A stretch of 46,487 nucleotides of DNA, from contig CAMSZT010000025.1 in the NCBI GenBank assembly GCA_947066815.1, positions 1-46,487 on the forward strand, given 5' to 3'. The translations under genes and the position numbers were made by a program. How positions within the stretch are numbered: position 1 is the first letter of the stretch; each line of letters opens with the position of its first letter. Source of the DNA: an uncultured Lachnotalea sp. GTDB lineage: Bacteria; Bacillota; Clostridia; Lachnospirales; Lachnospiraceae. Of the stretch, positions 2,152 through 40,812 are shown one piece after another. Under the pieces are notes generated by a model. That model made no database searches. It was not told where the DNA came from and worked only from the letters and a program-made list of their open reading frames with translations.

Positions 2152-2157
2152 TATGAT

Positions 2158-3282: not shown

Positions 3283-3426
3283 AGCTTCTTTCTCCAGCAT
3301 TTCTAAATAGTTCTTTCGTTTATCATATAACAGATTTTCACATTGCGCAATTCTTTTGTTAATTCCGTCACAGATCGGGAAGGCCCTGCCCTCTTTAGAA
3401 CACTTTCTTATAAATGGAAAGATATT

Positions 3427-3506: not shown

Positions 3507-3574
3507 AACGAGAAAGAAAAAAGAAGGATAATCATCTATTTTGCACAAAACAAAAAGGGAAGGGAGGAACTATC

Positions 3575-5068
3575 TTGGAAAATACGGTAAGGATGGAGCT
3601 CAGGCACGTGTCCAAATCATTTCCGGGAGTGAAAGCCTTGGATGACGTGAGCTTTCAGCTCAAGAAGGGGAGCGTCCATGTTCTGTGCGGGGAGAACGGC
3701 GCAGGGAAATCGACCCTGATGAAGGTCCTGTACGGCCTGTATCATCCGGACGAGGGGGAGATCATCATCGACGGCGAGAAGGTGCAGATCCATTCGCCCA
3801 TGGACGCCAGGAAGCATAAGATCTCCATGGTGTTTCAGGAATTGTCCTTCGTGCCGGACATGACCCTAGAGGAGAATCTGTTCTTGGGACGCTGGCACAA
3901 GAAGAACCCGGTGAAGATGGACTGGAAGCGGATCCGGAAGGAGACGGAGGAGCTTCTTGCGAGGGAGGGGCTGGATTACAAGCCGGACACGCTGCTGCGG
4001 GACATGAGCGTCTCCAACATCCAGATGCTGGAAATCCTCAAGGCGGTGTCCTTCAATGCGGAGATCCTGATCATGGACGAACCGACCTCGTCCATTTCCA
4101 ACCAGGAGGTGGAATTTTTGATCAAGAAGATCAACGAGCTCAGGGACAGGGGGATGAGCATCATCTACATATCCCACAAGATGGACGAGATCTTCCGGAT
4201 CGCCGACGAGATCACCGTGCTCAGGGACGGTAAGACCATCAGGACCCTGGCGAAGGACGAGACCAACATGGAGGAGATCATTGAGCTGATGGTGGGCCGG
4301 AAGCTGGAGAACCAGTACCCGAAGCAGGAGATCCCCATCGGGGAGGAGCTCCTCCGGGTGGAGCATCTGACCCGGAATAAGCTGTTCGAGGACGTGAGCT
4401 TCCACGTGAGGGCGGGCGAGATCGTCGGCTTCGCCGGGCTGGTGGGAGCCGGCCGGACCGAGGTCATGAGCGCATTGTTTGGCATGGAGCGCTACGATTC
4501 CGGGGAGATTTTCCTGGACGGAAAGCCCATACAGGTGAAGAACATCCGCAGGGCCATCGACCAGGGGATCACCATGGTGACGGAGGACCGGAGGAAGTTC
4601 GGGATCGTTCCGGTGAGGAGCGTCCTGGAGAATGCGTCCCTTGCCACTCTGAAAAAGTTCTTTTACAAGTTCCGCAGCCACAGGAAGATGGAGCATGACC
4701 AGGTGAGCGAGGTGTTCGCAAAGGTGAGGGTGAAGACGCCTTCCCTGGAGACGCCGATCATGAACCTGTCCGGCGGCAACCAGCAGAAGGTGATCCTGGC
4801 CAAATGGATGCTGTGCGATTCCGGTCGGGTGATCATCATGGACGAGCCGACCAGGGGCATCGACGTGGGGGCGAAAAAGGAGATCTATGAGCTGATGAAC
4901 GTGCTTGCGGAGAGCGGAAAGGGGATCGTCATGGTGTCCTCGGAGCTTCCGGAGCTGATCGGCATGTGTGACCGGATCTATGTGATGAAGGAAGGAAAGA
5001 TTTCCGGCTGTCTCACGGAACGGGAACTTTTCACCCAGAGAGAGATCATGAGCTATGCGGTTTCATAA
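3575..5068 (+). CDS. Sugar ABC importer ATPase, RbsA/MglA/XylG type
   Basis: A 497-aa tandem-domain ATPase energises sugar uptake on the cytoplasmic face. The first domain has GENGAGKSTLMKVL and MDEPTSSISN with a degenerate signature (SVSNIQMLEILKA), normal for this family. The second has a modified P-loop (LVGAGRTEV), the signature LSGGNQQKVILAKW and MDEPTRGIDVG. The start is TTG 3575, preceded by AGGGAGG at good spacing; ATG 3593 is a less likely alternative. It is the first gene of ATPase-permease-binding protein, an order with the binding protein last. The family transports pentoses, hexoses and polyols; the neighbouring polyol dehydrogenase points to a polyol or related sugar. Confidence 0.92.
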   Translation: MENTVRMELRHVSKSFPGVKALDDVSFQLKKGSVHVLCGENGAGKSTLMKVLYGLYHPDEGEIIIDGEKVQIHSPMDARKHKISMVFQELSFVPDMTLEENLFLGRWHKKNPVKMDWKRIRKETEELLAREGLDYKPDTLLRDMSVSNIQMLEILKAVSFNAEILIMDEPTSSISNQEVEFLIKKINELRDRGMSIIYISHKMDEIFRIADEITVLRDGKTIRTLAKDETNMEEIIELMVGRKLENQYPKQEIPIGEELLRVEHLTRNKLFEDVSFHVRAGEIVGFAGLVGAGRTEVMSALFGMERYDSGEIFLDGKPIQVKNIRRAIDQGITMVTEDRRKFGIVPVRSVLENASLATLKKFFYKFRSHRKMEHDQVSEVFAKVRVKTPSLETPIMNLSGGNQQKVILAKWMLCDSGRVIIMDEPTRGIDVGAKKEIYELMNVLAESGKGIVMVSSELPELIGMCDRIYVMKEGKISGCLTERELFTQREIMSYAVS

Positions 5069-5085
5069 AAAGGGAGGGATTTGTC

Positions 5086-6045
5086 GTGGAAAAGAAAAAT
5101 TCGTTTAATCTTTCAAAAATCATATCCAAGTACAGTCTTGTGATCATTCTGGTGGTCATGATCGTGGTCTGCAGCTTTGCCAACGAGAATTTCCTCCAGT
5201 TCAAGAACCTGATGAACGTGGCCAAGCAGCAGTCGGTCAACATCCTGCTGGCCCTGGGCGCCATGCTGCTCATCTCGGCGGGCGGCCTGGACCTGGCGGC
5301 CGGTTCCAACCTGGCCCTCGCCAGCGTGGTGGCCCTCTATGCCTACAAGGCGGTGCCCAGCGTGTTTCTCACCTTCCTGGTGGCCATCGCCGTTGCGGTG
5401 GTCTGCAACCTGATCAGCGGCTTCATGGTGACGAAGTTCCGCACGCCGCCCTTTATCGCCACCCTGGCCATGCAGCTCATGGCGAGGGGCGTGGCCCTCT
5501 ATATCACCCAGGGGCAGAACCAGTCGGGCCTCGGGGAAAACCTGCAGGTGATCGGCCAGGGGAGCACCCTGGGGATCCCCAACAGCATCTACATCATGGT
5601 CGTGATCGTCCTGGCAGTCATTTACCTGACCAAGGAGACGAAGCTGGGGCGTTCCGTGTTCGCCGTGGGCGGCAACGAGGAGGCGGCCAACGCTTCCGGC
5701 ATCAATGTCAATGCGGTGAAGATGAAGGTGTACGCCATCAACGGCCTTCTGACCGGCATTGCGGCCACCATCTGGCTGTCCAGGGTCAACAGTGCCATGC
5801 CCAACGGCGGCGTCAGCTATGAGTTTGATGCCATGATCGCCACCATCGTGGGCGGCACCAGCTTCTCCGGCGGCGTCGGCTCGGCGGTGGGCACGGTGAT
5901 CGGCGCCTTCATCGTGGGCTTTTTGAACAACATCATGAACCTGATGGGCATCGATTCCTATCTGCAGCAGGTGGTCCGGGGCGTCATCATCGGCGGCGCC
6001 GTGATCTGGGATATTTATTTCAAAAACAGAAAAAGCTCCAGATAA
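5086..6045 (+). CDS. Sugar ABC importer permease, RbsC type
   Basis: A 319-aa multi-spanning inner-membrane permease of the BPD_transp_2 family. Hydrophobic segments run through the length, with the family hallmarks LLISAGGLDLAAGS near residue 65, TKFRTPPFIATL in the middle, GRSVFAVGGNEEAANASGI, and a terminal GGAVIWDIYFK. The start is GTG 5086 behind AGGGAGG, 17 nt after the ATPase stop, so the two are co-transcribed. A single permease gene suggests a homodimer channel. Substrate specificity cannot be read from the permease. Confidence 0.92.
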   Translation: MEKKNSFNLSKIISKYSLVIILVVMIVVCSFANENFLQFKNLMNVAKQQSVNILLALGAMLLISAGGLDLAAGSNLALASVVALYAYKAVPSVFLTFLVAIAVAVVCNLISGFMVTKFRTPPFIATLAMQLMARGVALYITQGQNQSGLGENLQVIGQGSTLGIPNSIYIMVVIVLAVIYLTKETKLGRSVFAVGGNEEAANASGINVNAVKMKVYAINGLLTGIAATIWLSRVNSAMPNGGVSYEFDAMIATIVGGTSFSGGVGSAVGTVIGAFIVGFLNNIMNLMGIDSYLQQVVRGVIIGGAVIWDIYFKNRKSSR

Positions 6046-6120
6046 CGAAACAGGAAAGGAGGACGGCAGGAGCATCTGGAGACCATCATAAAAGCAACCA
6101 TAACAATCAAGGAGGATACT

Positions 6121-7224
6121 ATGAAAAAAAGTGTAAGAACCATCATCAGCGCAGTATTATGTTCCACGTTGATCCTTTCTCTGGCGGCATGCGGCGGAGA
6201 GAAGAAGGAGGAGACGAAGGGTGCGGACGCCGGTGCGGAGACCACGGCGGCGGCAGAGAGTAAGGCGGAAGAGGGGACCGAGGCGGCGGCCGGGACGGAA
6301 GCGGCCAGCGGCGAGAAATTCAAGGTTCTCTATGTGAGCCGGAACCAGGCAGACACCTTTGCGGCACGCCTGTCCGGAGATTTTGTGAAATACTGGGAAG
6401 CGAATTACCAGGATCAGTTTGAGTTCGACGTTCAGGACGCACAGGCTGACCCGGACAAGGAAAACCAGCTCATCGAGCAGGGGATCACGGCAGGCTACGA
6501 CGGAATTATCGTTCAGCCCAACGACAGCGATGCCCAGACTCCTTACGTGAAGCAGGCGGCGGACGCCGGCGTGAAGGTCATCACCACCAATGCGGGCATC
6601 CGTGACATCGAGGGCGCTTCCTGGATTGATGCCGATCCCTATGAGCAGGGCAGGGTTATTGCGGAGCTGGCCGTCAAGCAGGCGCCGGAGAACGCAAAGG
6701 TTGCGATCATGTCCTGTAATCCCGGCAACCTCCACACCGAGAGCAGACTGCAGGCTTACAAAGACATTTTCGTGGCTCAGAGGACCGACTGTGAGATCGT
6801 GGCGGAGAAGATCTGCACCCAGAGCGACCAGGCGACCTTCATGCAGACCATGGAGGACTGGGTACAGGCTTACGGCAAGATCGACGTGGTCCTGACCATC
6901 GGCGACGATTTGGCAAAGGCCTGCTACGAGGTAGTCAAGGACGATCCTACCTTTGCAGACACCCAGTACTATGCGGTGGACGCCAATCCCGATGCCCTCC
7001 TTCGGATCAAGGCCGGGAACCAGGATGCGACCGTCATGCAGGACACCCAGGAGCTGGCTCAGAAGAATCTGGACGCCATGTATGACCTGATGACCGGAAA
7101 GCAGGAGAAGGTGGAGGAGACCATCGAGACCATCCTGATCACTCCGGAGAACGTGGACGAGTATATCGAGAAATACATCGAGATCGGGATCATCACCCAG
7201 GAAGAGTATGACGCCGTGAAATAA
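6121..7224 (+). CDS. Sugar-binding lipoprotein of the ABC importer (RbsB-like)
   Basis: A 367-aa periplasmic-binding-protein-like lipoprotein. The signal peptide ends in the lipobox LAAC with lipidated Cys24, followed by a low-complexity Glu/Ala/Thr linker to about residue 60 that tethers the domain outside the cell. The mature part is a type-I sugar-binding fold (FKVLYVSRNQADTFAARL, QLIEQGITAGYDGIIVQPND, GVKVITTNAGI). AAGGAGG stands 6 nt before ATG. It is the last gene of the importer operon; binding proteins are usually needed in excess, and the separate strong ribosome site fits that. The ligand is unknown. Confidence 0.92.
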   Translation: MKKSVRTIISAVLCSTLILSLAACGGEKKEETKGADAGAETTAAAESKAEEGTEAAAGTEAASGEKFKVLYVSRNQADTFAARLSGDFVKYWEANYQDQFEFDVQDAQADPDKENQLIEQGITAGYDGIIVQPNDSDAQTPYVKQAADAGVKVITTNAGIRDIEGASWIDADPYEQGRVIAELAVKQAPENAKVAIMSCNPGNLHTESRLQAYKDIFVAQRTDCEIVAEKICTQSDQATFMQTMEDWVQAYGKIDVVLTIGDDLAKACYEVVKDDPTFADTQYYAVDANPDALLRIKAGNQDATVMQDTQELAQKNLDAMYDLMTGKQEKVEETIETILITPENVDEYIEKYIEIGIITQEEYDAVK

Positions 7225-29301: not shown

Positions 29302-29383
29302 TGTGTTCAATTCACACAATAAAACCCCGAAATTAAAAATATAAAAAAGCATATTGACAAATAATGCGCCTTTGGTATATAAT
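29302..29383 (+). promoter_or_regulatory. Promoter and palindrome driving the ten-gene catabolic cluster
   Basis: TTGACA (29354-29359), 18 nt, TATAAT (29378-29383) is a strong promoter. TGTGT-7-ACACA (29302-29318) is a perfect palindrome 35 bp upstream of the -35, a position that suits an activator or an upstream operator. The region 29210-29435 is otherwise extremely A/T-rich and holds no gene. The regulator is probably the ROK protein encoded at 39195. Confidence 0.75.
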
Positions 29384-29435
29384 AACGGAAAATAATAAAA
29401 AACCTTTATTTATAAATTGGAGAGGAGAAGGGTAA

Positions 29436-30476
29436 ATGGAAGAACGCTTATTTAATACTATTTATGGCAGAAACCTGGTGGGCGAATTAAAAAACATTGT
29501 TCAGAGACCTTACCTGGTGGTGACCATGGAGGATCTCTGGGAGAAATTCCGGGGGGAATTCGATGAGGACGCCCACGTGCACTTCGTGAAGACCCTGGAG
29601 TACGACGAGATCATGAGGGAGCTTGAGGAGCTGGGAGAGTTCGAAGCAGTCATCGGCCTCGGCGGGGGACAGGCTGTGGATTACGCGAAAATGGCGGCCT
29701 GGAAGACCCACCGTCCTCTGTACCAGGTACCGACCTCCATCGCGACCAACGCGGTATTCGGCCACCGGGCCGGGATCCGCTTCGACAGCTCGGTGCGGTA
29801 TGTGGGATATGTGGAGCCGGTGGCTGTCTACATCGATTTTGACGTGATCCAGAAGGGGCCGAAGGCCCTGAACCGGAGCGGGGTGTGCGATGTGCTCTGC
29901 TACCATAACGCAGTCTATGACTGGAAATATGCCTGGGACCGGGGAAAGTGCGAGAGTCAGTGGCCCTATGACGAGAGTCTGGCGGCGAGATCCATGGAGG
30001 TGTATGACCGGATTGTGGAGGCCATGGACGATATCTATGAGCTCAACGAGAAGGGCATTCGGGTACTGACGGAGGGACTCCGCTGGGGCGGGGGCGCCTT
30101 CCACAACGCCGGGTGGAACCCCAGGCACATCGAGGGGACGGACCATTTCCTTTTCTACACACTGGAATATATGACAAAGAAAAAATTCATCCACGGCCAG
30201 CCGGTCTGCCTGGGGATCTTTACCGGCTCCCTGATGCAGGACAATGACGCGGAGGGGATGCTGAGGCTGATCCACCGGGCCGGCGTGGATATCCGGCCGG
30301 AGGCCATGGGGATCACCTGGGAGGATGTCTTTGCGGCATTAAAATACGAAAAGGAGTTCCTGGAGAAGGACGGAAAATGGTTCACGGTCGCCAATGATTT
30401 TGTGGTGACGGATGAGTTCTGCGAGAGAGTAAAGGCCATGATCCTGGAGGTGTACGGGGAATGGCCCGAAAAATAA
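29436..30476 (+). CDS. Glycerol-1-phosphate dehydrogenase/AraM-like metal-dependent dehydrogenase
   Basis: 346 aa of the DHQ-synthase-like/iron-ADH superfamily, NAD(P)-dependent. The nucleotide loop is GLGGGQAVDYAK (about 74-85), followed by YQVPTSIATNAV. Metal ligands by alignment to the family are Asp152 (GVCDVLCYHNAVYDWK), His237 (EGTDHFLF) and His253 (FIHGQPVCLG). The DVLCYHNAVYDW motif resembles GDLLAKYTALADW of G1P dehydrogenases, not butanol-type enzymes. AGAGGAGAAGG precedes the ATG. As first gene of the cluster it probably acts on the imported compound or a phosphorylated intermediate; the substrate is undetermined. Confidence 0.8.
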   Translation: MEERLFNTIYGRNLVGELKNIVQRPYLVVTMEDLWEKFRGEFDEDAHVHFVKTLEYDEIMRELEELGEFEAVIGLGGGQAVDYAKMAAWKTHRPLYQVPTSIATNAVFGHRAGIRFDSSVRYVGYVEPVAVYIDFDVIQKGPKALNRSGVCDVLCYHNAVYDWKYAWDRGKCESQWPYDESLAARSMEVYDRIVEAMDDIYELNEKGIRVLTEGLRWGGGAFHNAGWNPRHIEGTDHFLFYTLEYMTKKKFIHGQPVCLGIFTGSLMQDNDAEGMLRLIHRAGVDIRPEAMGITWEDVFAALKYEKEFLEKDGKWFTVANDFVVTDEFCERVKAMILEVYGEWPEK

Positions 30477-30494
30477 AAAAAGGAGGAACGATCA

Positions 30495-31538
30495 ATGAAG
30501 AAGGGATTGGCATGGATCCTGGCGGCGGTGATGCTCTTTAGTCTGGCGGCCTGCGGCGGAAAGAAGGAAGAGGATGAGAAGGCGGCGGGTACGGAGGCGC
30601 AGGCGGGAGAGGAAACCGCGGAAACGAAGACTGCGGAAAAGAAAGAAGAAGGTTCAGGGGCGAAGGAGGGGAAGATCCGGGTCGGGTTTTCCCAGATGGA
30701 CAACAACGGGGCCTGGCGGGTGGTTGAGACAGAGGATATGAAGGCGGTGGCCGGGGAACGGGGCTATGAGCTGGTGTACACCGACGCCCAGAGCCAGACC
30801 TCCAAGCAGCTTTCCGACATCGAGGACCTGATCGCCCAGGAGGTGGATTATCTGGTCATCGCGCCGAAGGAGACGACAGGGCTGGAGCGTGGGCTGGAGG
30901 AGGCGAAGGAGGCCGGGATCCCGGTGATTCTGATCGACCGCTGCCACGACGGGAAAGCCGGGGAGGATTATGTGACCTATATTGCCTCCGACTTTGTCTA
31001 CCAGGGCTATGAATGCGGACAGGCGCTGGCGAAGGCCCTGGACGGAAACGGGAAGGTTGTGGTGATCGAGGGACAGCCCGGCGGCTCCGACGCCATCGAG
31101 CGCCAGGAGGGCTTTGACAAGGCCATGGAGGAGTATCCGGATATCGAGGTGATCGCTTCCCAGCCGGGAGAATATTCCAGGAGCAAGGCCCAGAGTGTCA
31201 TGGAAAGCTTTCTGCAGACCTATGGCGACGAGATCGACGCGGTGTTTTCCCATGACGATGAGATGGCCCAGGGAGCCATCACAGCCATCGAGGCCAATAA
31301 CCTGAAGGCAGGAGAGGACATCAAGATCGCAGGGATCGACGGCCAGAAATCGGCCATCCAGGCGATCATCGACGGGAAGATGACGGCGGTGGTGACCTGC
31401 TCGCCCCGGTTCGGGACCATCGTATTTGATACGATCGAGCGGCTCATCGCCGGGGAGACGCTGGAGACCTACATCCAGCTGGAGGATTATGTGATCGACA
31501 GCTCCAACGCGGAGGCAGAGCTGGAGAACGGATTCTGA
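30495..31538 (+). CDS. Sugar-binding lipoprotein of the second ABC importer
   Basis: 347 aa, RbsB/Peripla_BP_4 type. Lipobox LAAC with Cys20, an acidic/lysine linker to about 55, then the binding fold: IRVGFSQMDNNGAWRVVETE, QLSDIEDLIAQEVDYLVIAP, GIPVILIDRC, VVVIEGQPGGSDAIERQEGF and SHDDEMAQGAITAIEAN. AAAAGGAGG precedes the ATG. Unlike the first importer, the binding protein is encoded before the ATPase. The sequence is clearly different from the 6121-7224 protein, so a different ligand is expected. Confidence 0.92.
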   Translation: MKKGLAWILAAVMLFSLAACGGKKEEDEKAAGTEAQAGEETAETKTAEKKEEGSGAKEGKIRVGFSQMDNNGAWRVVETEDMKAVAGERGYELVYTDAQSQTSKQLSDIEDLIAQEVDYLVIAPKETTGLERGLEEAKEAGIPVILIDRCHDGKAGEDYVTYIASDFVYQGYECGQALAKALDGNGKVVVIEGQPGGSDAIERQEGFDKAMEEYPDIEVIASQPGEYSRSKAQSVMESFLQTYGDEIDAVFSHDDEMAQGAITAIEANNLKAGEDIKIAGIDGQKSAIQAIIDGKMTAVVTCSPRFGTIVFDTIERLIAGETLETYIQLEDYVIDSSNAEAELENGF

Positions 31539-31612
31539 GGAGCCAGAGAAACGGGAAGGCGCTCCTGGTGCCAGGGGCGTCTTCCTTTTTGGAGAGAAGG
31601 GGAGGGTCGGTA

Positions 31613-33136
31613 TTGACCGGACAACGTTTATTGGAGATCCGGGGACTGAGCAAGCGGTTTCCGGGGGTACTGGCTTTGGACCAGGTGGACTTCACGGTGG
31701 AAAAGGGGGAGGTCCACGCATTGATGGGAGAGAACGGCGCGGGAAAATCAACGCTGATCAAGATCCTCACAGGAATTTACGAAAAAGATGAGGGCACGAT
31801 GGTCTTTGACGGGAGAGAAGTGGATTTTCGAAACACCGCACAGGCCCAGGAGGCCGGGATCAGCACCATTTACCAGGAGCTGAACCTGATCCCGGAGCTC
31901 AGCGTCGCGGAGAATCTCTTCCTGGGGCGCCAGCCGGTGACAAGGGGCCGGATCGCCTGGAAAAAGATCTATGAACAGGCGGAGGAGTTCCTCTCGGGTC
32001 TTGGGATCCAGGTGGATGTAAAAAAACGTCTCGGGGGCTGCAGCACGGCCGTCCAGCAGATGGTGGCGGTCGCCAGGGCGGTGTCTCTGGAGGCCAGGCT
32101 CCTCATCATGGACGAGCCTACATCCTCCCTAGGCGATAAAGAAGTGAAGATCCTGTTCGGCCTGATGGATAAGATCCGGGCCCAGGGGATCGGGATGATC
32201 TTCGTGTCCCACCGCCTGGACGAGATCTTTGAGATCTGTGACCGGGTGACCATCCTGCGGGACGGCAGGCTGGTAGAAACCCTTCCGGCGGCGGATCTGA
32301 CCAAATACGACCTGATCACAAAGATGATCGGGAGAGACGCGGGCGAGGTGATGAACCGGAAGGCGGCCCGCAGAGAGATCTCCGGGGAAGCCCTGTTTGA
32401 GGCAAGGGAAGTGACCAGGGGAGTCCGGGTCCGCGGAATCGACCTGAGCGTCCGGAAGGGCGAGGTGGTCGGGCTGGCCGGGCTTTTGGGGGCCGGCCGT
32501 ACGGAGTTCGTCCGTACTGTCTTTGCCGCGGATAAAATGGAGGCCGGCCGGATCTATATGGAAGGGAAGCAGGTCTCCTTCCGCTCTCCCAGAGCGGCGG
32601 TGAAGAGGGGGCTCGGCTTTCTGTCGGAGGACCGGAAGGCGGAGGGGATCATCCCCCATTTATCCGTCCGGGAAAATATGTCCCTGGCCATCCTTCCCCA
32701 GGTTTCCAGGGCAGCCTGGATCAGGAAGCGGATGGAGCGGGAGAAGGTGGAGTTTTATTCCGGCAAGCTGCGGGTGAAAACGCCGGACCAGGAGCAGAGT
32801 ATCTGCAACCTGTCGGGAGGGAATCAGCAGAAGGTCATCCTGGCCAGATGGATGGCGACAAAGCCGAAGCTTTTGATCCTGGACGAGCCGACGAGAGGGA
32901 TCGACGTGGGGGCCAAGGCGGAGATCGAGGTTCTGATCCGGGAGATGGCAGAGGAGGGGATCGGTGTCCTGCTCATCTCCTCCGAGCTGGAGGAGCTGGT
33001 CAGGAACTGCGACCGCATCGCTGTGATCCGAGACGGCCGGAAGATCGTGGAGCTTGAGGGGGAGGAGATCTCCGAGGAGGCAGTCCTCCATTCCCTGTCG
33101 GCCGCGTCGGAGAACGGGAAGGAGGTGGACCGGTGA
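31613..33136 (+). CDS. Sugar ABC importer ATPase (second system)
   Basis: 507 aa, tandem ABC domains of the RbsA type. Domain 1: GENGAGKSTLIKIL, TIYQELNLIPELSV, MDEPTSSLGDKE. Domain 2: LLGAGRTEFV, LSGGNQQKVILARW, LDEPTRGIDVG, ISSELEELVRNCD. The start is TTG 31613 behind GGGGAGGGT; the frame also opens at 31568 but that stretch lacks a ribosome site. Its TGA overlaps the GTG/ATG of the next permease, so translation is coupled. Confidence 0.92.
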   Translation: MTGQRLLEIRGLSKRFPGVLALDQVDFTVEKGEVHALMGENGAGKSTLIKILTGIYEKDEGTMVFDGREVDFRNTAQAQEAGISTIYQELNLIPELSVAENLFLGRQPVTRGRIAWKKIYEQAEEFLSGLGIQVDVKKRLGGCSTAVQQMVAVARAVSLEARLLIMDEPTSSLGDKEVKILFGLMDKIRAQGIGMIFVSHRLDEIFEICDRVTILRDGRLVETLPAADLTKYDLITKMIGRDAGEVMNRKAARREISGEALFEAREVTRGVRVRGIDLSVRKGEVVGLAGLLGAGRTEFVRTVFAADKMEAGRIYMEGKQVSFRSPRAAVKRGLGFLSEDRKAEGIIPHLSVRENMSLAILPQVSRAAWIRKRMEREKVEFYSGKLRVKTPDQEQSICNLSGGNQQKVILARWMATKPKLLILDEPTRGIDVGAKAEIEVLIREMAEEGIGVLLISSELEELVRNCDRIAVIRDGRKIVELEGEEISEEAVLHSLSAASENGKEVDR

Positions 33137-34080
33137 TGAAAGAAAAGCGGACCGTCCTGCAGTTTGTGAGCCGGTACGGCGCAGCCTGTTTCCTCGGGGC
33201 GCTGCTCCTTGGAAACGCGGTCTTTACAAAAAATTTTATCAGCATAAACATTGTGTGGAATCTGGTGACCCAGGGCTTTGTCACCCTTGTGGCCGCACTT
33301 GGGATGATGCTCGCGATCTCCAGCGGGGGAATCGACCTCTCCGTGGGATCCGTGATGCCGGTGGCGGCGATGATCACCGCGGGGAATCTGGAAAAGGGGA
33401 TCGGATATGCGGTCCTCGCCGGGCTTTTGGCGGCCCTTCTGCTGGGCTGCTTCAACGGTGTGATCATCGGGGTCTTTAAGGTCCAGCCCTTTATCGTCAC
33501 CCTGTCCATGTATATGATGGCGAGGGGGCTGGCGCAGCTTACCAACAACTCCATGGTGCTCAATTTTACCAACGAGGCATTTACCCGCCTGAGCCGTTAC
33601 CGGATCGGGAACCAGGTGCCTGTCCAGCTTCTGATCATCCCGGTCTTCATCGGGCTCCTGTTTGTGATCGTAAAGAAGAGCACCGTCGGACGGTATATCC
33701 AGGCAGCCGGGGACAACAGAGAGGGCGCCCGCCTGTCCGGGGTCCCGATCATCGGGACGACCATTTTTGTCTATGGGATGTGCTCCCTGTTGGCCGGCGC
33801 GGCCGGGATCTTTGAGATCGCCCGGGTGGGGGCCTCCGATCCCAATACCCTGGGACTCCATGTGGAGCTGGACGCCATCGCGGCGGTGGTGCTGGGAGGA
33901 ACGCCGATGTCGGGCGGAAAGATCAATCTTTCCGGGACCGTCTTCGCGGCCTTTGTCATGCAGCTGATCGTGATGACAGCCAACATGAACAATATCTCTG
34001 CCCAGTACGCGTATATCGTAAAAGCCGCCTTGATCCTGGCGGCCGTGATCGCGCAGCGCCGGGAAAGTCTGAGACGATAG
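33133..34080 (+). CDS. Sugar ABC importer permease A (second system)
   Basis: 315 aa, RbsC-type multi-spanning permease with MMLAISSGGIDLSVGSVMPV, KVQPFIVTLSMYMMARGLAQ, GRYIQAAGDNREGARLSGV and GGTPMSGGKINLSGT. GTG 33133 has AAGGAGG at 7-nt spacing; the adjacent ATG 33136 is an alternative. It overlaps the ATPase stop. It pairs with the permease encoded next, giving a heterodimeric channel. Confidence 0.9.
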   Translation: MMKEKRTVLQFVSRYGAACFLGALLLGNAVFTKNFISINIVWNLVTQGFVTLVAALGMMLAISSGGIDLSVGSVMPVAAMITAGNLEKGIGYAVLAGLLAALLLGCFNGVIIGVFKVQPFIVTLSMYMMARGLAQLTNNSMVLNFTNEAFTRLSRYRIGNQVPVQLLIIPVFIGLLFVIVKKSTVGRYIQAAGDNREGARLSGVPIIGTTIFVYGMCSLLAGAAGIFEIARVGASDPNTLGLHVELDAIAAVVLGGTPMSGGKINLSGTVFAAFVMQLIVMTANMNNISAQYAYIVKAALILAAVIAQRRESLRR

Positions 34081-34092
34081 GAGGAGGCTGTC

Positions 34093-35079
34093 ATGAAAAA
34101 AGAAAACAATCTGCCGAAGCAGGTGATCGACCTTCTTTGCAGGAACAGTGCGGCGGTGGTCCTTGTGGTCCTGCTCCTGTTCGGGATCCTCCGCTTTGAT
34201 ACCTTCCTGACGGCGGGGAATATCCGGAATATCCTGCGCCAGTCCAGCATGCTGGGGACCATGGCGGTCGGTATGACCTTTGTGATCCTGACGGGAGGGA
34301 CGGATCTGTCTGTGGGCTCCGTGTTTGCGCTGTCCGGGGCGGCGGCCGCCATGCTGAGCTCCAAAAATATTTATCTGGGGGTCCTGCTTGCCCTCCTCCT
34401 CTCGGCGCTCGCGGGGGCCGTCAACGGGATCTTTATCGCCAAATGCAACGTCCCGCCCTTTGTCGCGACCCTCTGTATGATGATGGCCCTCCGGGGGGCC
34501 GTACACATCATGACCAACGAGCGGCCCCTGCAGCTAGACCGGGAGTCGGCGGGGTGGTTTTACGATATGTCGGGGGCGGAGGTGTCTGGGATCCCGGTCC
34601 TGGTGCTGATCTTTGCGGCGGTGGTCGTGCTGGCCTGCCTGCTCCTCAAGTATTCCAGGCTGGGGAGGAACATCTACGCGGTCGGAGGAAATGCGGAGGC
34701 AGCGAGGATGATGGGCTTAAACGCGGCGGGGACCCAGATCCTCACCTATACCATGAGCGGCTTCTTATCCGGGCTTTCCGGGCTCATGATGTGCTCCAGG
34801 ACCGGGGCAGCCTATCCCTTGGCCGGAAACGGATGGGAGATGAACGCCATCGCGGCGGTGGTGCTGGGCGGGACGGCCATGTCGGGGGGCGTCGGGACTG
34901 CGGCCGGCACGGTGGTCGGCACCCTGATCATGGGCTGCATCGGGAACATGATCAACCTGGAGGGGACCCTCGGTTCCTCCTGGCAGTATGTGATCAACGG
35001 CCTTGCGCTCCTCCTTGCAGTGCTTTTGATGCAGTTCCAGGCACTGCGCCAGAACTATGGGACGGCGGCCGCGGAGTGA
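34093..35079 (+). CDS. Sugar ABC importer permease B (second system)
   Basis: 328 aa, a second RbsC-type permease: TFVILTGGTDLSVGSVFAL, KCNVPPFVATLCMMMALRGA, GRNIYAVGGNAEAARMMGLN, GGTAMSGGVGTAAGTVVGT. It starts 13 nt after its partner with GGAGG upstream. A two-permease arrangement beside one double ATPase matches AraH/XylH-like importers with heterodimeric membrane parts. The stop at 35079 is followed by the palindromic region that separates transport from enzyme genes. Confidence 0.9.
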   Translation: MKKENNLPKQVIDLLCRNSAAVVLVVLLLFGILRFDTFLTAGNIRNILRQSSMLGTMAVGMTFVILTGGTDLSVGSVFALSGAAAAMLSSKNIYLGVLLALLLSALAGAVNGIFIAKCNVPPFVATLCMMMALRGAVHIMTNERPLQLDRESAGWFYDMSGAEVSGIPVLVLIFAAVVVLACLLLKYSRLGRNIYAVGGNAEAARMMGLNAAGTQILTYTMSGFLSGLSGLMMCSRTGAAYPLAGNGWEMNAIAAVVLGGTAMSGGVGTAAGTVVGTLIMGCIGNMINLEGTLGSSWQYVINGLALLLAVLLMQFQALRQNYGTAAAE

Positions 35080-35111
35080 GGCGGCTTCAGGGGGATAAAA
35101 AAGAGAAATGG

Positions 35112-35317
35112 AATTGCGAGATCATAAAATATGGGAAAGATTCTGACGACTGCTTCCAGGAAAAGCCCTCTGCGCCATGGAGATGAGACCATGGAAAACC
35201 GGAGGGCCCATGCCCTCCGGTTTTCTGCGCTTATGGGCTCATTGGAATGTTTGGCGCTGCAGGCTTTGGATGGACGCAGTCGTCAGAATCTGCTCTGCAA
35301 TTTCATGTCTCGCAATT
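35112..35317. repeat. 206-nt nested imperfect palindrome inside the catabolic operon
   Basis: Three nested inverted pairs share one centre: AATTGCGAGA (35112) with TCTCGCAATT (35308), a 15-bp pair GATTCTGACGACTGC (35139) with its complement at 35276, and a 13-bp pair at 35195/35212. The gap between the outer and middle pairs is 17 nt on each side. The inner gaps still match in patches (AAAGCC, GCGCCA, ATGAG). It looks like a folded-back MITE-type element or a long structured RNA. No gene is supported in it. Confidence 0.75.
35195..35225 (+). terminator. Terminator-like core hairpin inside the operon
   Basis: AAAACCGGAGGGC, loop CCAT, GCCCTCCGGTTTT: a perfect 13-bp stem ending in T4. It could attenuate transcription between the importer and the enzyme genes. 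No strong promoter is visible between it and 35355. Confidence 0.7.
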
Positions 35318-35354
35318 ACCTGAGAGAGATACAAAATAGAAAGGAGAATGATCC

Positions 35355-36131
35355 ATGATAAGATATGACGAGGTATTTTCATTGAAGGAACACATTGTGC
35401 TGATCACGGGTTCCACGAGGGGGATCGGCAGAGGACTGGCGGATTCCATCGCGGCGGCCGGGGCGGATGTGGCTGTCGTGGGGACCAGGGAAGAGACGGC
35501 GAAAGCCGTGGCAGAGGAGATCCGGGAGCAGTTCGGCGTGAGGACGGCGGGAATCGGCTGCGACGTGAGGGATTCTTCTCAGGTAAGGGCCATGTTTGAC
35601 CGGTGCGAGGAGCTTCTGGGGACGCCGGACCGGCTGCTCAACGACGCCGGGATCACGCTGTTAAAGCCGGCCCTGGAGGTGGAGGATGAGGAGTTCAAAA
35701 ATGTGATCGATGTGAACTTGAACGGGGCCTTTTACTGCTGCCGGGAATTTGCGAAAAGACTGATCCGGCAGGGGAAGAAGGGCGCCATCGTCAACCTGGT
35801 CTCCAATTCCCACCTGATCGTGACGAGGCCCCAGAAGGAGGCGGCCTATAACGCGTCCAAGGCCGGGCTCCTGATGTTGACCAAGACCCTGGCGATCGAG
35901 TGGATGGAGTACGGGATCCGGGTCAATTCCGTGAGCCCCGGCTATATCTTCACGGATATGGTGAACAAGGAGGATCCGGAGTGGATCCGGCAGTGGGTGG
36001 AGAGCATCCCTCTGGGAAGGATGGGGACGCCGGACGAGCTGGCGGGGGCATTCCTGTATCTGTTCAGTGATTCCTCCGGCTTTACCACAGGCTGCGACAT
36101 GGTGATCGACGGCGGTTATACCTGTGTATAG
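35355..36131 (+). CDS. Short-chain dehydrogenase/reductase
   Basis: 258 aa classical SDR. The nucleotide motif TGSTRGIGRGL (Gly19, Gly23, Gly25) is intact. The usual NNAG appears as NDAG (residues 96-99). The catalytic set is Ser150/152, Tyr165, Lys169 (YNASKAG). The tail GCDMVIDGGYTCV is typical of GolD/gluconate-5-dehydrogenase-like sugar-alcohol and ketose reductases. AAGGAG lies 8 nt before the ATG. It probably interconverts a hydroxyl and keto group on the imported sugar, making the keto form needed by the aminotransferase that follows. Confidence 0.88.
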   Translation: MIRYDEVFSLKEHIVLITGSTRGIGRGLADSIAAAGADVAVVGTREETAKAVAEEIREQFGVRTAGIGCDVRDSSQVRAMFDRCEELLGTPDRLLNDAGITLLKPALEVEDEEFKNVIDVNLNGAFYCCREFAKRLIRQGKKGAIVNLVSNSHLIVTRPQKEAAYNASKAGLLMLTKTLAIEWMEYGIRVNSVSPGYIFTDMVNKEDPEWIRQWVESIPLGRMGTPDELAGAFLYLFSDSSGFTTGCDMVIDGGYTCV

Positions 36132-36151
36132 AGGGGGGAGGGAGGAGAGAC

Positions 36152-37468
36152 ATGAACGGAAAAGAGATCGTGGAGAAAAGCCGGAAGCGGATGCTTCCGA
36201 TCTACGGGCCCTCCCCCCTGGCATTTGCGCGGGGGAAGGGGATGTACCTGTATGACACGGACGGAAAGGGATACCTGGATTTTTCAGCCCAGTTTTCCTC
36301 CTGCAGCCTGGGCCACTGCAATGAGGAGCTGAACGAGGCGGTCTCGGCCCAGCTGCGGAAGCTGGTCTCTGTCACGACCATGTTCCTGACGGAGGAGCAG
36401 ACGAGGCTGGCGGACCGGCTCCTTCGGGCAGCACCAAAGGGGCTTTCGCGGGCGATCTTTGGCTGTACCGGCTCAGACGCCAATGAGCTGGCCCTCAAGC
36501 TGGCGAAATACGGGAAGGGCGGCGGGCGGATCATATCCTTCCGGAGAGGGTTCCACGGTTCCACGGCAGCCTCCGCGGCCGCCACGGGAAAGGCAGAGAC
36601 CATCCAGGAGGATTCCGGCATCTCCGAGCTGCTGCCCAGGGGCTTTGTGCACAGCTCGCCGCCCTACTGCTACCGGTGCGATTTCGGGGGCAGCGAGGGA
36701 GCCTGCGGGAACTGGTGCCTGCGCTACCTGGAGCAGACCATCCTCCATGAGGGCGGAGACAAGGTGGCGGCCGTCATCCTGGAACCGATCTTCGCGGCAG
36801 GAGGAGTGATCGTGCCGCCGAAGGGATTTTTAAAGGGCGTGAGAGAACTCTGTGACAAATACGGCGCATTCCTGATCCTGGACGAGGTGGTGACCGGGAT
36901 CGGGCAGACCGGGACCATGTTTGCCTGTGAAGAGGAGGGCGTGACGCCGGATATCCTGGTCACGGGGAAGGCACTGACGGGAGGGTATATCCCCGGCTCG
37001 GCAGTGCTCGTGACGGAGGAGATCGGGAGGGCTGCGGAGGGGCTTTTGCTCCACGGGCATACCCATTCCTGCTATCCCCTCATGTGCGCGGCTGCGGAGG
37101 CAAACCTTGCCATCATCGAGCGGGACGGCCTGGTAAAAAACGCCAAAGATACGGGGGCTTATCTCCATCGGAAGCTGGAAGGGCTCAGGGACCGGTACGC
37201 GTGTGTCGGCGACGTGCGGGGCAGAGGGCTCCTGCAGGGAATCGAGCTTGTCCGGGACCGGGAGACCAAAGAGGCGGACCATGACCTGGGAGAGCGGCTG
37301 TTTCAGCAGATGCTGAAAAACGGGCTGATCACGGAGCTTGAGAGCAGGAGGAATCTGGAGAACGCGGTGATCGTCCTGCACCCGCCGCTCATCACAGGGA
37401 GGGAGGATGTGGACAGGGCAGTTTCTATCATGGAGATATCCCTGGAGAAATGCCTTCGGGGAGAGTGA
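36152..37468 (+). CDS. Class-III PLP aminotransferase, dialkylglycine-decarboxylase-like
   Basis: 438 aa, fold-type I PLP enzyme. Cofactor residues: GCTGSDANE (phosphate cup), FHG at 134-136, Asp244 in ILDEVVTGIGQTG, and Schiff-base Lys273 in TGKALTGG. The segments GVTPDILV, CVGDVRGRGLLQGIELV and LGHC closely follow 2,2-dialkylglycine decarboxylase. Gln47 (SAQFSS) falls where that enzyme has its decarboxylation-linked Gln; this is a by-eye alignment. A Cys-rich insert (YCYRCDFGG, ACGNWC, residues 172-189) is unusual. The gene starts 20 nt after the SDR gene. I infer amino transfer, perhaps with decarboxylation, in a sugar-derived pathway; GABA/ornithine-type activity is the alternative. Confidence 0.85.
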   Translation: MNGKEIVEKSRKRMLPIYGPSPLAFARGKGMYLYDTDGKGYLDFSAQFSSCSLGHCNEELNEAVSAQLRKLVSVTTMFLTEEQTRLADRLLRAAPKGLSRAIFGCTGSDANELALKLAKYGKGGGRIISFRRGFHGSTAASAAATGKAETIQEDSGISELLPRGFVHSSPPYCYRCDFGGSEGACGNWCLRYLEQTILHEGGDKVAAVILEPIFAAGGVIVPPKGFLKGVRELCDKYGAFLILDEVVTGIGQTGTMFACEEEGVTPDILVTGKALTGGYIPGSAVLVTEEIGRAAEGLLLHGHTHSCYPLMCAAAEANLAIIERDGLVKNAKDTGAYLHRKLEGLRDRYACVGDVRGRGLLQGIELVRDRETKEADHDLGERLFQQMLKNGLITELESRRNLENAVIVLHPPLITGREDVDRAVSIMEISLEKCLRGE

Positions 37469-37504
37469 GATATCACGGCCGATACGGCAGAGACGAGGAA
37501 CAAA

Positions 37505-38401
37505 ATGGAAAAGAGAGAATGCCTTGGAATCGATATAGGAGGAACGAGCGCGAAATACGCGCTCATCGGAGAAGACGGACGGATGAGGGACCAGGGCCAT
37601 TTCCCCACGGGCCGGCACATGGCAAAGGAAGCCTTTCTGGAGGAGCTGTTCCGGGTGACCGACAGGGCGGTGGACGAGCGGATCCGGGGCTTCGGCATCT
37701 GCAGCCTCGGCATTCTGGACAGGGACAGCGGCTGCATCGTCGGGGCCACGGAAAACCTTCCCTTCCTCACGGGGATGAACCTGGGAGAGCTCTTAAGACA
37801 GCGCTACGGGGAGATACCGGTCTACATCAACAATGATGTGAAGGCGGCCGCTCTCGGGGAGTGGTGGCTGGGGGCGGCGAAGGGCTGCCGGAATTTCTGC
37901 TGCATTACCTTCGGCACCGGACTGGGGGGCGCCTTTGTCCTGGATTCCAAACTGGTGGAGGGAGTCCATTTCCGGGCAGGGGAGATCGGGTACCTGGATT
38001 ACCGGGGGAAGGACGATTATCTGGAAAAAAAGGTCTCCACGGGGCATCTGATGAAGAACGCGGCGGGGAGGCTCGGCATCCCGCGGATCGACGGCGTGGA
38101 TTTTTTCCGGCGGGTAAGAGCCGGGGATGCCGTATGTGAGGCAGTACTGGAGGACTGGACAGAGCAGTCCGCCCGGTTCATCGCCAATATCTTTCTGATG
38201 ATGGACCTGGAAAAGGTCATCATCGGAGGAGGGATCTCCAATGAGAAGGAGCTCCTGCTCCCGAAGCTTGAAAACAGGGTCAGGCAGATGGTGCCGGAAC
38301 AGTTTGCGGATGAGGTGTCGATCGTCATGGCAGAGCGGTGCAATCACGCGGGCATGCTGGGGGCGGTCAGTGTATTTCTGGCAAAGGAGAGGATATGGTA
38401 G
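37505..38401 (+). CDS. ROK-family sugar kinase lacking the zinc motif
   Basis: 298 aa. The ATP site LGIDIGGTSAKYAL, catalytic Asp111 (YINNDVKAAALGEW) and FGTGLGGAFV identify a ROK kinase. The zinc cluster (CxCGxxGC) is absent, and the His of GEIGH is Tyr (GEIGYL), so it belongs to the zinc-free branch. It has no DNA-binding domain and is thus an enzyme, not a regulator. It would phosphorylate a hexose or amino-hexose, likely at O6. Its last codons overlap the start of the NagB-type gene (ATGGTAG), which couples the two and suggests the kinase product is the deaminase substrate. Confidence 0.88.
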   Translation: MEKRECLGIDIGGTSAKYALIGEDGRMRDQGHFPTGRHMAKEAFLEELFRVTDRAVDERIRGFGICSLGILDRDSGCIVGATENLPFLTGMNLGELLRQRYGEIPVYINNDVKAAALGEWWLGAAKGCRNFCCITFGTGLGGAFVLDSKLVEGVHFRAGEIGYLDYRGKDDYLEKKVSTGHLMKNAAGRLGIPRIDGVDFFRRVRAGDAVCEAVLEDWTEQSARFIANIFLMMDLEKVIIGGGISNEKELLLPKLENRVRQMVPEQFADEVSIVMAERCNHAGMLGAVSVFLAKERIW

Positions 38402-39114
38402 AGATCATTCGGGCGGAAAACTATGAGGAGCTTGGACGAATCGCCGGAGAGCAGATCCTCCGGCAGGTGGAAGAAAAAAGGGACAGTGTCCTGGGACTGG
38501 CGACGGGGGGCACCCCCAGGGGAATCTACCGGTACCTGGCAGAAAAAAAGCCGGATCTCTCCCGGGTCCGGACCGTCAATCTGGATGAATATCTGGGGCT
38601 TTCCGGGGGAGACCCCCGGTCCTATCATTATTATATGAAGGAATACGTCTGGGAGCCTCTGGAGATCGGCAGGGAGAACCGGCTGATCCCGGACGGGCTG
38701 TGTCCGGACGCGGAGGAGGAGTGCAGGAGATACGAGGAGCAGATCCGGGTCCTGGGCGGCATCGACCTGCAGCTTCTCGGGCTCGGGGAGAACGGGCACA
38801 TCGGGTTCAATGAGCCGGGGCCGGCATTTGTGTGTGATACCCATAAGGTCTGTCTGTCCCCGGAGACGAGGGCGGCCAACAGCCGCTTTTTCGGCTCGCC
38901 GGAGGAGGTACCCCGCTATGCTCTGACCATGGGGATCCGGACGATCATGCGGGCAAGACGGATCCTCCTGGTGGTGAGCGGCGGGAAAAAGGCGAAAGCG
39001 CTGCAGGCCCTCATGGGAGGGGGGGTCACGCCGCAGATCCCGGTTACCATCCTCCTCCTCCATCCGCGGGTGACGGTGGCGGCGGACGCGGCGGCATTGG
39101 GCGGGAAGTTCTGA
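38395..39114 (+). CDS. Glucosamine-6-phosphate deaminase-like (NagB family)
   Basis: 239 aa, matching the short Bacillus-type NagB. LATGGTPRGIY (phosphate loop), NLDEYLGL with catalytic Asp64, LGLGENGHIGFNEPG with His135 and Glu140, and the lid THKVCLSPETRAANSRFF are conserved, so activity on an amino-sugar-6-phosphate is likely (to ketose-6-phosphate and ammonia). AAAGGAG precedes ATG 38395, which overlaps the kinase stop. No NagA deacetylase is nearby, so the substrate probably arrives unacetylated or is made by the kinase. The gene symbol is withheld because the substrate may differ from GlcN6P. Confidence 0.9.
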   Translation: MVEIIRAENYEELGRIAGEQILRQVEEKRDSVLGLATGGTPRGIYRYLAEKKPDLSRVRTVNLDEYLGLSGGDPRSYHYYMKEYVWEPLEIGRENRLIPDGLCPDAEEECRRYEEQIRVLGGIDLQLLGLGENGHIGFNEPGPAFVCDTHKVCLSPETRAANSRFFGSPEEVPRYALTMGIRTIMRARRILLVVSGGKKAKALQALMGGGVTPQIPVTILLLHPRVTVAADAAALGGKF

Positions 39115-39119
39115 TTTCA

Positions 39120-39148
39120 TTGAATCCTTTGGAAAATTTTGCTATACT
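39120..39148 (+). promoter_or_regulatory. Promoter of the second ROK regulator gene
   Basis: TTGAAT (39120-39125), 17 nt, TATACT (39143-39148), starting just after the deaminase stop. The regulator can therefore be made independently of the operon. Confidence 0.75.
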
Positions 39149-39194
39149 GAGGGATGAAGCTGGTCATAAAAAAGAAAACGGATCGTGGTGAGGA

Positions 39195-40355
39195 ATGGTG
39201 AATGAGGGTCTGACTCTGCGGAATGTCAGAGAGGCAAACAGAAAAAATATCATATGTTCTATCCTGGACCGCGGGTATGACATGCGCCGGGACGAGCTCG
39301 CTTCGGAAAACGGCATCAGCATTATGACGGTGAAAAAGATCGTTTCCGAATTTTTGGCCTTCGGGATCGTGGAGGAACAGGAGGTGCCCTCCGGGGTCGG
39401 CCGCCGGCCGAAGGTCCTGCGGATGGCGGAGCAGTACGGGACGATTGCCTGTGTGAGCCTGACCTCCCGGGAATATTTTTCTTACCAGATCATGGATTTT
39501 AAGAGGAATATCCTGGAAAAAAGACAGCTGATCCTGAAAGAGCAGTACAGCTATCACGAAAATCTGCTGCAGCTGCAGGAGAGCCTCCGGCAGGACCTGG
39601 AAAGGACCGGGCTTACCTGCGTGGGGATCTGCCTTTCCGTGCCCAGCGCCTACTATGAGGAGCAGGATCTGGTCAATTACGACCTGATCCCGGAATTTAA
39701 GGACCTTCATCTGAAGCAGCTGTTCCGGGAAGCCTTCGGCCTGGAGAATGTATCGGTGGTCCACGACGTGTTTGCGGCGGCCCAGGCAGAGTATAACCGG
39801 CTGGAGGGGTTCAAAGGGAGCCTGTTTTATTTCTATGTGGGATACGGCGTCGGTGGGGCCTGCGTCAACGGCGGGAACTGGCAGAGCGGCCATGACCTGG
39901 TGGCGGGGGAGATCGGGCAGATGATCGTGGAGGCCGGCGGGGAGGAGAGGACCCTGGAATCAGTCATCTCCATCCCGGCCATCCTGGACGATATTTACGA
40001 CCAGTGCGGGGAACGGATCAGCTTCTATGAGGCGCTCCTACGGTATAAGGACGGAGATGCCTGCGTGACAGAGCGGATCGGCCGGGCGACCGGGCAGATC
40101 GCAAAAGCCCTGTATGCGGTGTCATGGATCATCAATCCGGCATACATTGTCATCGGGGGAGTGTATCCGGAATTTGTAAAGATCCTGGTGGAGGCCTGCC
40201 GCCGCTACAATACAAGGATGACCAGACTGTCCATCCGCAATTCCGTACAGATCCGGGCAGCCGTGTCCTCCGACGGGGAGATGGACGGCTGTTACGATAT
40301 CGTGATGGAGAGATGGATCGACTGGGTGGTACACAGCATTCCGGAGACAGAATAG
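39195..40355 (+). CDS. ROK-family transcriptional regulator, zinc motif absent
   Basis: 386 aa. N-terminal winged HTH (about 10-65; NRKNIICSILDRGYDMRRDE, ISIMTVKKIVSEFLAFGIVE), then a ROK domain with VHDVFAAAQAEYN, YVGYGVGGACVNGG and INPAYIVIGGVY. The His of GEIGH is Gln (GEIGQM) and there is no CxCGxxGC cluster, in contrast to the ROK protein at 2158-3282. The start is ATG 39195 with GAGGA very close, or GTG 39198 with better spacing. It is probably the sensor for the cluster's substrate or phosphorylated intermediate, acting on the promoter near 29302-29383. Confidence 0.88.
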   Translation: MVNEGLTLRNVREANRKNIICSILDRGYDMRRDELASENGISIMTVKKIVSEFLAFGIVEEQEVPSGVGRRPKVLRMAEQYGTIACVSLTSREYFSYQIMDFKRNILEKRQLILKEQYSYHENLLQLQESLRQDLERTGLTCVGICLSVPSAYYEEQDLVNYDLIPEFKDLHLKQLFREAFGLENVSVVHDVFAAAQAEYNRLEGFKGSLFYFYVGYGVGGACVNGGNWQSGHDLVAGEIGQMIVEAGGEERTLESVISIPAILDDIYDQCGERISFYEALLRYKDGDACVTERIGRATGQIAKALYAVSWIINPAYIVIGGVYPEFVKILVEACRRYNTRMTRLSIRNSVQIRAAVSSDGEMDGCYDIVMERWIDWVVHSIPETE

Positions 40356-40547: not shown

Positions 40548-40775
40548 ATGAAAAAGAGACAGATCAAAGTATCAAGAGTTGAAGATGCAAAGACACTGGT
40601 ATCCACAGCGAGCAGATGTAGCTTTGACGTTGATGTGTACTATAACAGGATGGTGGTAGACGCCAAATCCATCCTGGGCGTCATGAGCTTAGACTTAAGC
40701 CAGCCCTGGACCGTGCAGTACAGTGGGGTGGATACGACGCTGGAGGATGTGCTGGATCGGTTTGCAAGCTGCTGA
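40548..40775 (+). CDS. HPr-like small protein without the phospho-histidine
   Basis: 75 aa. VVDAKSILGVMSLDLSQ (residues 36-52) matches the HPr segment around regulatory Ser46 (KSIMGVMSL), with Ser41 in that place. The N-terminal loop that carries His15 in HPr reads KVSRVEDAKTLVSTA and has no His at all. It can therefore not pass phosphate in the PTS but could bind catabolite partners or be Ser-phosphorylated. ATG 40548 has AAGGGG about 9 nt upstream; a TTG at 40539 is too close to that site. It is a single-gene unit with its own promoter and terminator. Confidence 0.8.
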   Translation: MKKRQIKVSRVEDAKTLVSTASRCSFDVDVYYNRMVVDAKSILGVMSLDLSQPWTVQYSGVDTTLEDVLDRFASC

Positions 40776-40812
40776 CCCGGACGGACTCAAAAGACGAAAC
40801 AAAACGAGATTG

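Follow-up and report, generated by a model that had tools for sequence, protein, structure and literature searches.

Gene content of the locus

We analysed a 46,487-nucleotide stretch of DNA (hereafter the window) from an uncultured Lachnotalea sp., contig CAMSZT010000025.1 of assembly GCA_947066815.1, in which a first-pass annotation of the sequence had proposed an undescribed amino-sugar or amino-polyol catabolic operon. Pfam and NCBIfam scans of the open reading frames (ORFs) of the window indicated that positions 29436-40355 hold ten co-directional genes, each matching its expected Pfam family, and the gene set, order and coordinates given in that annotation all stood. Two of the ten recur throughout the text: the gene for an Fe-ADH_2 family dehydrogenase (DH) and that for a class-III pyridoxal phosphate (PLP) enzyme (AT3). 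The features are listed below with the evidence for each in brackets.

29354..29383, + strand: promoter, full sigma-70 consensus TTGACA-18-TATAAT (12/12 match)
29407..29418, + strand: candidate ROK-regulator operator, TATTTATAAATT (lies between promoter and start codon)
29436..30476, + strand: DH, Fe-ADH_2 / glycerol-1-phosphate dehydrogenase (G1PDH)-like dehydrogenase, 346 aa (Pfam, NCBIfam, alignments)
30495..31538, + strand: YtfQ/RbsB-type sugar-binding lipoprotein (Pfam, NCBIfam; lipoprotein signal by eye)
31613..33136, + strand: double ATPase of a CUT2 (Rbs/Ytf) ABC importer, likely TTG start at 31613 (Pfam, NCBIfam)
33133..34080, + strand: permease 1, BPD_transp_2 (Pfam, NCBIfam)
34093..35079, + strand: permease 2, BPD_transp_2 (Pfam, NCBIfam)
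35112..35317, no strand assigned: palindromic repeat element resembling a miniature inverted-repeat transposable element, about 206 bp, between permease 2 and the next gene (arms, genome copies, fold)
35355..36131, + strand: short-chain dehydrogenase/reductase (SDR) oxidoreductase, 258 aa (Pfam, NCBIfam)
36152..37468, + strand: AT3, class-III PLP enzyme, 438 aa (Pfam, NCBIfam, alignments, tree)
37505..38401, + strand: ROK sugar kinase without zinc motif (Pfam, NCBIfam, motif, nearest solved structure)
38395..39114, + strand: NagB, glucosamine-6-phosphate deaminase family (Pfam, TIGR00502)
39195..40355, + strand: ROK-family regulator (Pfam, NCBIfam)

A DH-AT3 core is conserved among rare and scattered relatives

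When 84,980 species genomes were scanned with DH, 14 loci besides the window were recovered; this number is a lower bound because the scan starts from short peptide patterns. DH was 71-77% identical to the window protein in 13 loci and 58% identical in a Chloroflexi metagenome-assembled genome (L026); the DH alignment left out L020, whose DH was 76% identical in the locus comparison. Full-length AT3 was present in 9/14 loci (63-67% identity), NagB in 8/14 (47-51%), the ROK regulator in 10/14 (33-40%), where it comes after AT3 or an AT3 fragment, and a ROK kinase in 10/14. The contigs of three loci (L018, L024, L025) are short and break off ahead of the AT3, NagB, regulator and kinase genes, and NagB occurs in 8 of the 10 long non-Chloroflexi loci. 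The usual gene order in the relatives was DH, transporter, NagB, AT3, regulator, kinase; in L020 the kinase precedes NagB, in L021 a symporter precedes DH, and L015, L016 and L017 each have another DH copy beyond the symporter gene. The two DH copies in these last three loci are near-identical and flank a GPH symporter gene. In L014, AT3 is cut to a 110-aa N-terminal piece (L014:11065-11397) and DH, regulator and kinase remain, a state that may reflect decay or an assembly fault.

The specific core of the module is DH and AT3, with the kinase, the regulator and usually NagB. This core stays together in other genomes, but other parts proved specific to the window: the overlap of the kinase and NagB genes, an Rbs-type importer within the string, the SDR and a zinc-free kinase were found in none of the 13 non-Chloroflexi loci. 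L017 does carry an Rbs-type importer, but it lies some 5 kb upstream of DH, not within the string, and is 26-33% identical to that of the window. Three importer types occur beside DH, namely RbsABC in the window and, among the nine loci tested by Pfam (permeases in L019 alone), an SBP_bac_1 protein in 4/9 and a GPH/MFS_2 symporter in 5/9, which suggests a monosaccharide-sized substrate.

The Chloroflexi locus, a single locus from a metagenome bin, carries a different set of partners. Its string consists of a LacI regulator, an FrlB-like SIS protein (152.9 bits, below the cut-off of 430), a partial PfkB match, a class-III enzyme, DH, an SBP_bac_1 protein, two ORFs at the permease position and an SDR that is 33% identical to the window SDR over 261 residues. 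The class-III enzyme belongs to the glutamate-1-semialdehyde aminomutase (GSAM) family (PRK00062, 418.9 bits over a cut-off of 398) and is 26% identical to AT3. Because unrelated or remote stand-ins adjoin the same kind of DH, this locus argues for a module of reactions.

No DH orthologue was found outside the window genome among 200 family genomes (E-value 1e-20), ten others of which matched DH at 25-32% identity, or among 392 order (1e-30), 391 class (1e-60) and 11 genus genomes (1e-60); these samples overlap and each count includes the window genome. AT3 was present in 2/392 order genomes (1e-90) and 1/381 class genomes (1e-120), with the window genome counted in both. Viral contigs gave 12 pattern matches, none of them a DH relative; in plasmids, the window DH had remote matches in nine records, at 28.6% identity or less, and the L026 DH matched 71 records, the 20 listed all at 26.0%. 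Plasmid matches to AT3 were assorted class-III enzymes, with E-values down to 2e-68. The distribution of the module is sparse and scattered, a pattern that would fit a catabolic island spreading by horizontal transfer.

The core enzymes, kinase and deaminase

DH passed the Fe-ADH_2 model (PF13685) at 52.4 bits against a gathering score of 28, and its residues D152, H237 and H253, which we take to be metal ligands, were invariant in 18 sequences. AT3 passed PF00202 at 319 bits (gathering score 30.5), and K273, presumably the catalytic PLP lysine, was invariant in 10 sequences. Within its own genome AT3 stands apart: the next matches reached at most 136 bits, compared with 816 for AT3 itself.

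The zinc-free character of the window kinase noted in the first-pass annotation was confirmed, since the motif CXCGXXGC is missing from it; the motif is present in 10/10 operon kinases of the relatives. The nearest solved structure to the window kinase is an N-acetylmannosamine kinase. Against the allose-kinase model PRK09698 (equivalog cut-off 253 bits) the window kinase scored 81 bits and did not pass, whereas the kinases of the relatives passed in 10/10 cases (260-293 bits). The genome of the window holds ten ROK-family matches, the kinase and regulator of the string included. NagB exceeded the curated TIGR00502 cut-off of 236.9 bits in both proteins tested (window, 249.1; L016, 283.9), but the window protein did not pass the subfamily model PRK00443.1-4 (250 vs 326 bits). 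The kinase and NagB genes overlap by 7 bases (38395-38401).

Promoter, operator-like site and internal repeat

The strong promoter that had been placed ahead of DH is a full consensus match; exact consensus promoters with a spacing of 16-18 occur three times in the window, compared with 0.01 expected from shuffles. The candidate operator at 29407-29418 is the sole site on the + strand scoring 11/12 or more within the 46 kb. Across the window and the 14 loci, TATTTATAAATA-like sites (at least 10/12, no more than 110 bases upstream of DH) were present in 13/15 sequences; shuffle controls gave a mean of 2.2 and a maximum of 7 of 15 in 500 rounds, a comparison that overstates the strength of the motif because it was chosen after inspecting the same regions. 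The motif fell below threshold upstream of DH in L015 (9/12) and L026 (6/12). Seven of the 15 upstream regions carry TATTTATAAATA-like copies at a 13-bp period. One loose pattern for catabolite-repression-like sites returned none. The operon would be inducible, with the ROK regulator as a putative repressor at the predicted site.

The palindromic element between permease 2 and the SDR has 66-nt arms that are 73% complementary and a perfect 14-nt central hairpin, and the predicted RNA fold of 35100-35330 has an energy of -116.9 kcal/mol (z -11). Matches to its family number 47 in the 3.4-Mb draft genome; the element itself, its match in reverse and many incomplete copies are all counted among them. 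The element could stop or process the transcript and so may affect read-through, and a weak promoter-like site (39120, 9/12) lies ahead of the regulator; because of these two features a continuous single transcript is not proven. The earlier proposal of one operon is borne out in the co-directional string and its promoter but qualified by the internal element and the site at 39120, and a single operon is likely, short of proof.

An AT3 relative in an azasugar-type cluster

A second genome with AT3 (G376, locus L050) encodes a protein 62% identical to the window AT3 within a string that runs class-III enzyme, inositol-monophosphatase-family phosphatase, zinc alcohol dehydrogenase, AT3, followed by glyoxalase-like, Gfo/Idh/MocA, MFS and DUF1349 genes. 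G376 seems to belong to the order sample, in which DH matched the window genome only. According to Beal and Horenstein (2021, PMC8382821), bacterial azasugar synthesis is marked by the combination of a class-III aminotransferase, a phosphatase and a dehydrogenase, to which an MFS gene is commonly added. The class-III enzyme at the head of the L050 string was 46.5% identical to the aminotransferase beside the annotated gutB1 (2-amino-2-deoxy-D-mannitol dehydrogenase) of Paenibacillus polymyxa, and the zinc dehydrogenase was 28% identical to P. polymyxa GutB1. Several comparisons speak against the azasugar link: the MFS proteins of L050 and P. polymyxa did not match each other, the DUF1349 proteins of the two were just 23-29% alike, and L050 keeps the GabT1 motif in part only.

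AT3 itself does not group with GabT1, the class-III enzyme of azasugar clusters. In a tree of 23 chosen sequences, the deeper branches of which are unresolved (support 22-32), AT3 including the L050 copy formed its own clade with support of 100 and GabT1 a separate clade with support of 97, and the identification was rejected on this basis. AT3 matched the GabT1 motif SGNXFRXXXFPNXXXXXXXLXVPXPYCXRC at 5/16 fixed positions without gaps; in L050 the ungapped match was 7/16, and the P. polymyxa enzyme fits with a one-residue shift only, as judged by eye.

Two side observations concern this cluster. At L050:5708-14159 (- strand) the glyoxalase-like and Gfo/Idh/MocA genes adjoin the three signature genes and could encode the missing epimerase and reductase; PMC8382821 states that these two enzymes have yet to be identified for deoxynojirimycin. 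In addition, L050, L051 and L052, which come from different organisms, each have DUF1349 genes close to a class-III aminotransferase paired with an alcohol dehydrogenase.

A proposed pathway and its alternatives

The functional class, amino-sugar or amino-polyol catabolism, is well supported, and the suggestion that the operon falls outside named pathways gained support as well: the core is co-conserved, NagB exceeds its cut-off, and searches of an open-licence full-text library, which lacks most subscription papers, turned up no published pathway that combines these genes. The searches likewise yielded nothing of use on catabolism of glucamine or meglumine, kanosamine, aminopolyols or azasugars. 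The reported lack of NagA also stood, in that Pfam detected no nagA-like gene among the ten genes, the remaining genome not having been searched for one; this would point to an unacetylated or N-modified sugar.

Our leading explanation, which we hold tentatively and at somewhat short of an even chance, is that the operon is inducible and serves to break down an aminated sugar or amino-polyol of monosaccharide size, probably an aminated hexose or hexitol, as follows; the substrate, the direction of DH and the order of steps are our inference. AT3 would take an amino group other than that at C2 off the substrate, leaving a carbonyl that DH would reduce to an alcohol to give a 2-amino-2-deoxyhexose. 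The ROK kinase would then phosphorylate C6, and NagB would release ammonia to yield fructose-6-phosphate for glycolysis, an end product suggested by the presence of NagB in the string. If AT3 removes an amine other than the C2 amine, the substrate would carry two nitrogens and be of the diamino sugar or amino-azasugar type. A ROK repressor would be bound at the TATTTATAAATA-like site that separates promoter and start codon, and the sugar or one of its derivatives would release it. Besides the conserved core, the cut-offs passed by NagB and by the kinases of the relatives, the importer types, the L026 string and the operator-like sites, we count in favour of this scheme that it needs just a textbook reaction type from each enzyme and that AT3 also sits inside an azasugar-type cluster in one genome.

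Several observations weigh against the scheme or qualify the first-pass annotation. AT3 fell below the cut-off in all 25 NCBIfam families listed, of 72 matched, and the top five scores among those listed were 307-325 bits vs cut-offs of 472-575. It was 35% identical to GabT1, no closer than to plasmid class-III enzymes (35-38%), and among 22 genomes of the L050 family it was found in one and in none of the other 21 (E-value 1e-120). The term G1PDH-like used for DH in the first-pass annotation holds in that G1PDH is its nearest family, but the resemblance is only remote, as DH scored 111.5 bits against PRK00843 and did not reach the equivalog cut-off of 413. NagB is missing from the strings of L023 and of L014, which also has no transporter in its string and retains only the AT3 fragment, and the window genome holds a second NagB-family gene elsewhere. 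The 7-base overlap of kinase and NagB had been taken to tie their steps together; the overlap is real, but that conclusion is weakened by the relatives, whose kinases belong to a different ROK group and follow the regulator in 9/10 loci; in L020, another kind of ROK kinase lies directly ahead of NagB without overlap. The allose-kinase type of these kinases could mean C3 chemistry without a diamine. On the regulatory side, the operator motif was picked post hoc, and the operator scores of L018, L024 and L025, which are among the 13, were matched by 12-18% of shuffles.

A further point concerns the reaction of AT3. At the position aligned with what we take to be R406 of dialkylglycine decarboxylase, AT3 has V408 and no arginine; because of this and the NCBIfam scores below cut-off, AT3 may be a lyase, mutase or epimerase and not a transaminase, which would also tell against the scheme. 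The azasugar GabT1 enzymes likewise lack arginine at this position, and R399 is conserved in both, so the argument is not decisive, and we dropped the missing arginine as proof that AT3 is not a transaminase. Glutamate-1-semialdehyde aminomutase and the class-III racemases provide precedent for aminomutase or epimerase chemistry. Such chemistry would serve the catabolism of an amino-hexitol or azasugar with a single nitrogen, in which DH oxidises the amino-polyol (or opens or reduces the azasugar) and an intramolecular shift or inversion of the amine by AT3 gives glucosamine for the kinase and NagB. The missing carboxylate-binding arginine, the AT3 relative in the azasugar-type cluster, and the GSAM-family enzyme (418.9 vs 398 bits) and FrlB-like deglycase-family protein beside the same DH in L026 all fit this alternative, but AT3 is not GSAM-like (the L026 enzyme shares 26% identity with it), the azasugar link comes from a single genome, and we know of no such amine shift in sugars; we consider it rather unlikely.

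L026 also bears on the catabolism of a sugar-amine conjugate (Heyns or Amadori type), in which kinase and NagB, or the FrlB-like protein in L026, would act as a deglycase system yielding sugar phosphate and amine, the latter passing through AT3 and DH to aldehyde and alcohol. The FrlB-like SIS protein (below its cut-off, as given above) and PfkB kinase beside the same DH agree with this, as does the finding that conservation is highest in DH, with a variable kinase and deaminase. To our knowledge NagB enzymes do not accept N-substituted substrates, and AT3 in the azasugar cluster would be left unexplained, making this distinctly unlikely. Less probable again is catabolism of a 3-amino sugar resembling kanosamine, with AT3 giving a 3-keto sugar, DH giving glucose or allose, the ROK kinase phosphorylating it and NagB as a side reaction. 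The 10/10 kinases of relatives that pass the allose-kinase cut-off and the lack of NagB in L014 and L023 favour it, but it leaves NagB of 8/10 long non-Chloroflexi loci without a role, the window kinase lies outside the allose-kinase group (81 bits), and no allose-6-P isomerase or epimerase was detected by Pfam among the ten window genes. In addition, known 3-keto-sugar aminotransferases belong to another PLP family. Finally, NagB, ROK kinase and ROK regulator are standard parts of an ordinary glucosamine or N-acetylglucosamine salvage operon, in which DH, AT3 and the SDR would be unrelated passengers; since conservation is strongest in DH and AT3, which occur together in nine other loci, we regard this as very improbable.

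Should an azasugar, amino-polyol or diamino sugar prove to be the substrate, the locus would represent the missing degradation side of a group of bioactive glycosidase inhibitors or of bacterial diamino sugars. It would offer a named four-enzyme set (DH, AT3, ROK kinase, NagB) that can be tested at once, and would give a function to class-III PLP and Fe-ADH_2 subfamilies that pass no specific cut-off among the NCBIfam matches listed. The broadest form of the idea is more doubtful than the scheme itself: that azasugars, amino-hexitols or diamino sugars would here have their first known route of breakdown, by which gut bacteria would eat glycosidase-inhibiting or doubly aminated sugars from other microbes and plants through a novel class-III PLP sugar enzyme, one that the producers have recruited too.

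Other features of the window

Upstream of the string lies a tRNA-nucleotidyltransferase-like gene and downstream a small gene followed by a helicase-like gene, all named by eye. At about 40550-40780 a short HPr-like gene (by eye) has its own promoter-like TTGACA and TATAAC hexamers. In the region 887-7224 the window also contains another Rbs-type importer operon (3575-7224), from which a ROK regulator gene (2158-3498) diverges. A promoter at 3452 matches the full consensus, positions 1937 and 3437 carry operator-like sites, and a zinc polyol dehydrogenase-like gene (by eye) lies nearby at 887-1921.

Comparison with known systems

DH shares with glycerol-1-phosphate dehydrogenase (EgsA/AraM) the Fe-ADH_2 family and the D/H/H residues but differs by score (111.5 vs 413) and by a family-specific motif around H223-R230. 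With nagB-type glucosamine and N-acetylglucosamine catabolism the window has in common a NagB over cut-off, a ROK kinase and regulator, and a sugar importer; unlike those systems, it has no nagA in the string and has an additional DH, class-III PLP enzyme and SDR. In the fructoselysine and glucoselysine (frl/gfr) deglycation operons, import is followed by a sugar kinase and then a deaminase or deglycase. The window follows the same logic, and L026 even has an FrlB-like SIS protein with PfkB, but the window uses NagB and ROK proteins and adds DH and AT3. Compared with the azasugar cluster gabT1-yktC1-gutB1, as set out in PMC8382821, the window differs by its importer, kinase and deaminase, by the lack of a phosphatase (none among the ten genes by Pfam) and of an MFS gene, and by an AT3 that forms a separate clade; what the two share is a class-III PLP enzyme and an alcohol dehydrogenase around amino-polyols, and a relative of AT3 (62% identical) lies inside L050.

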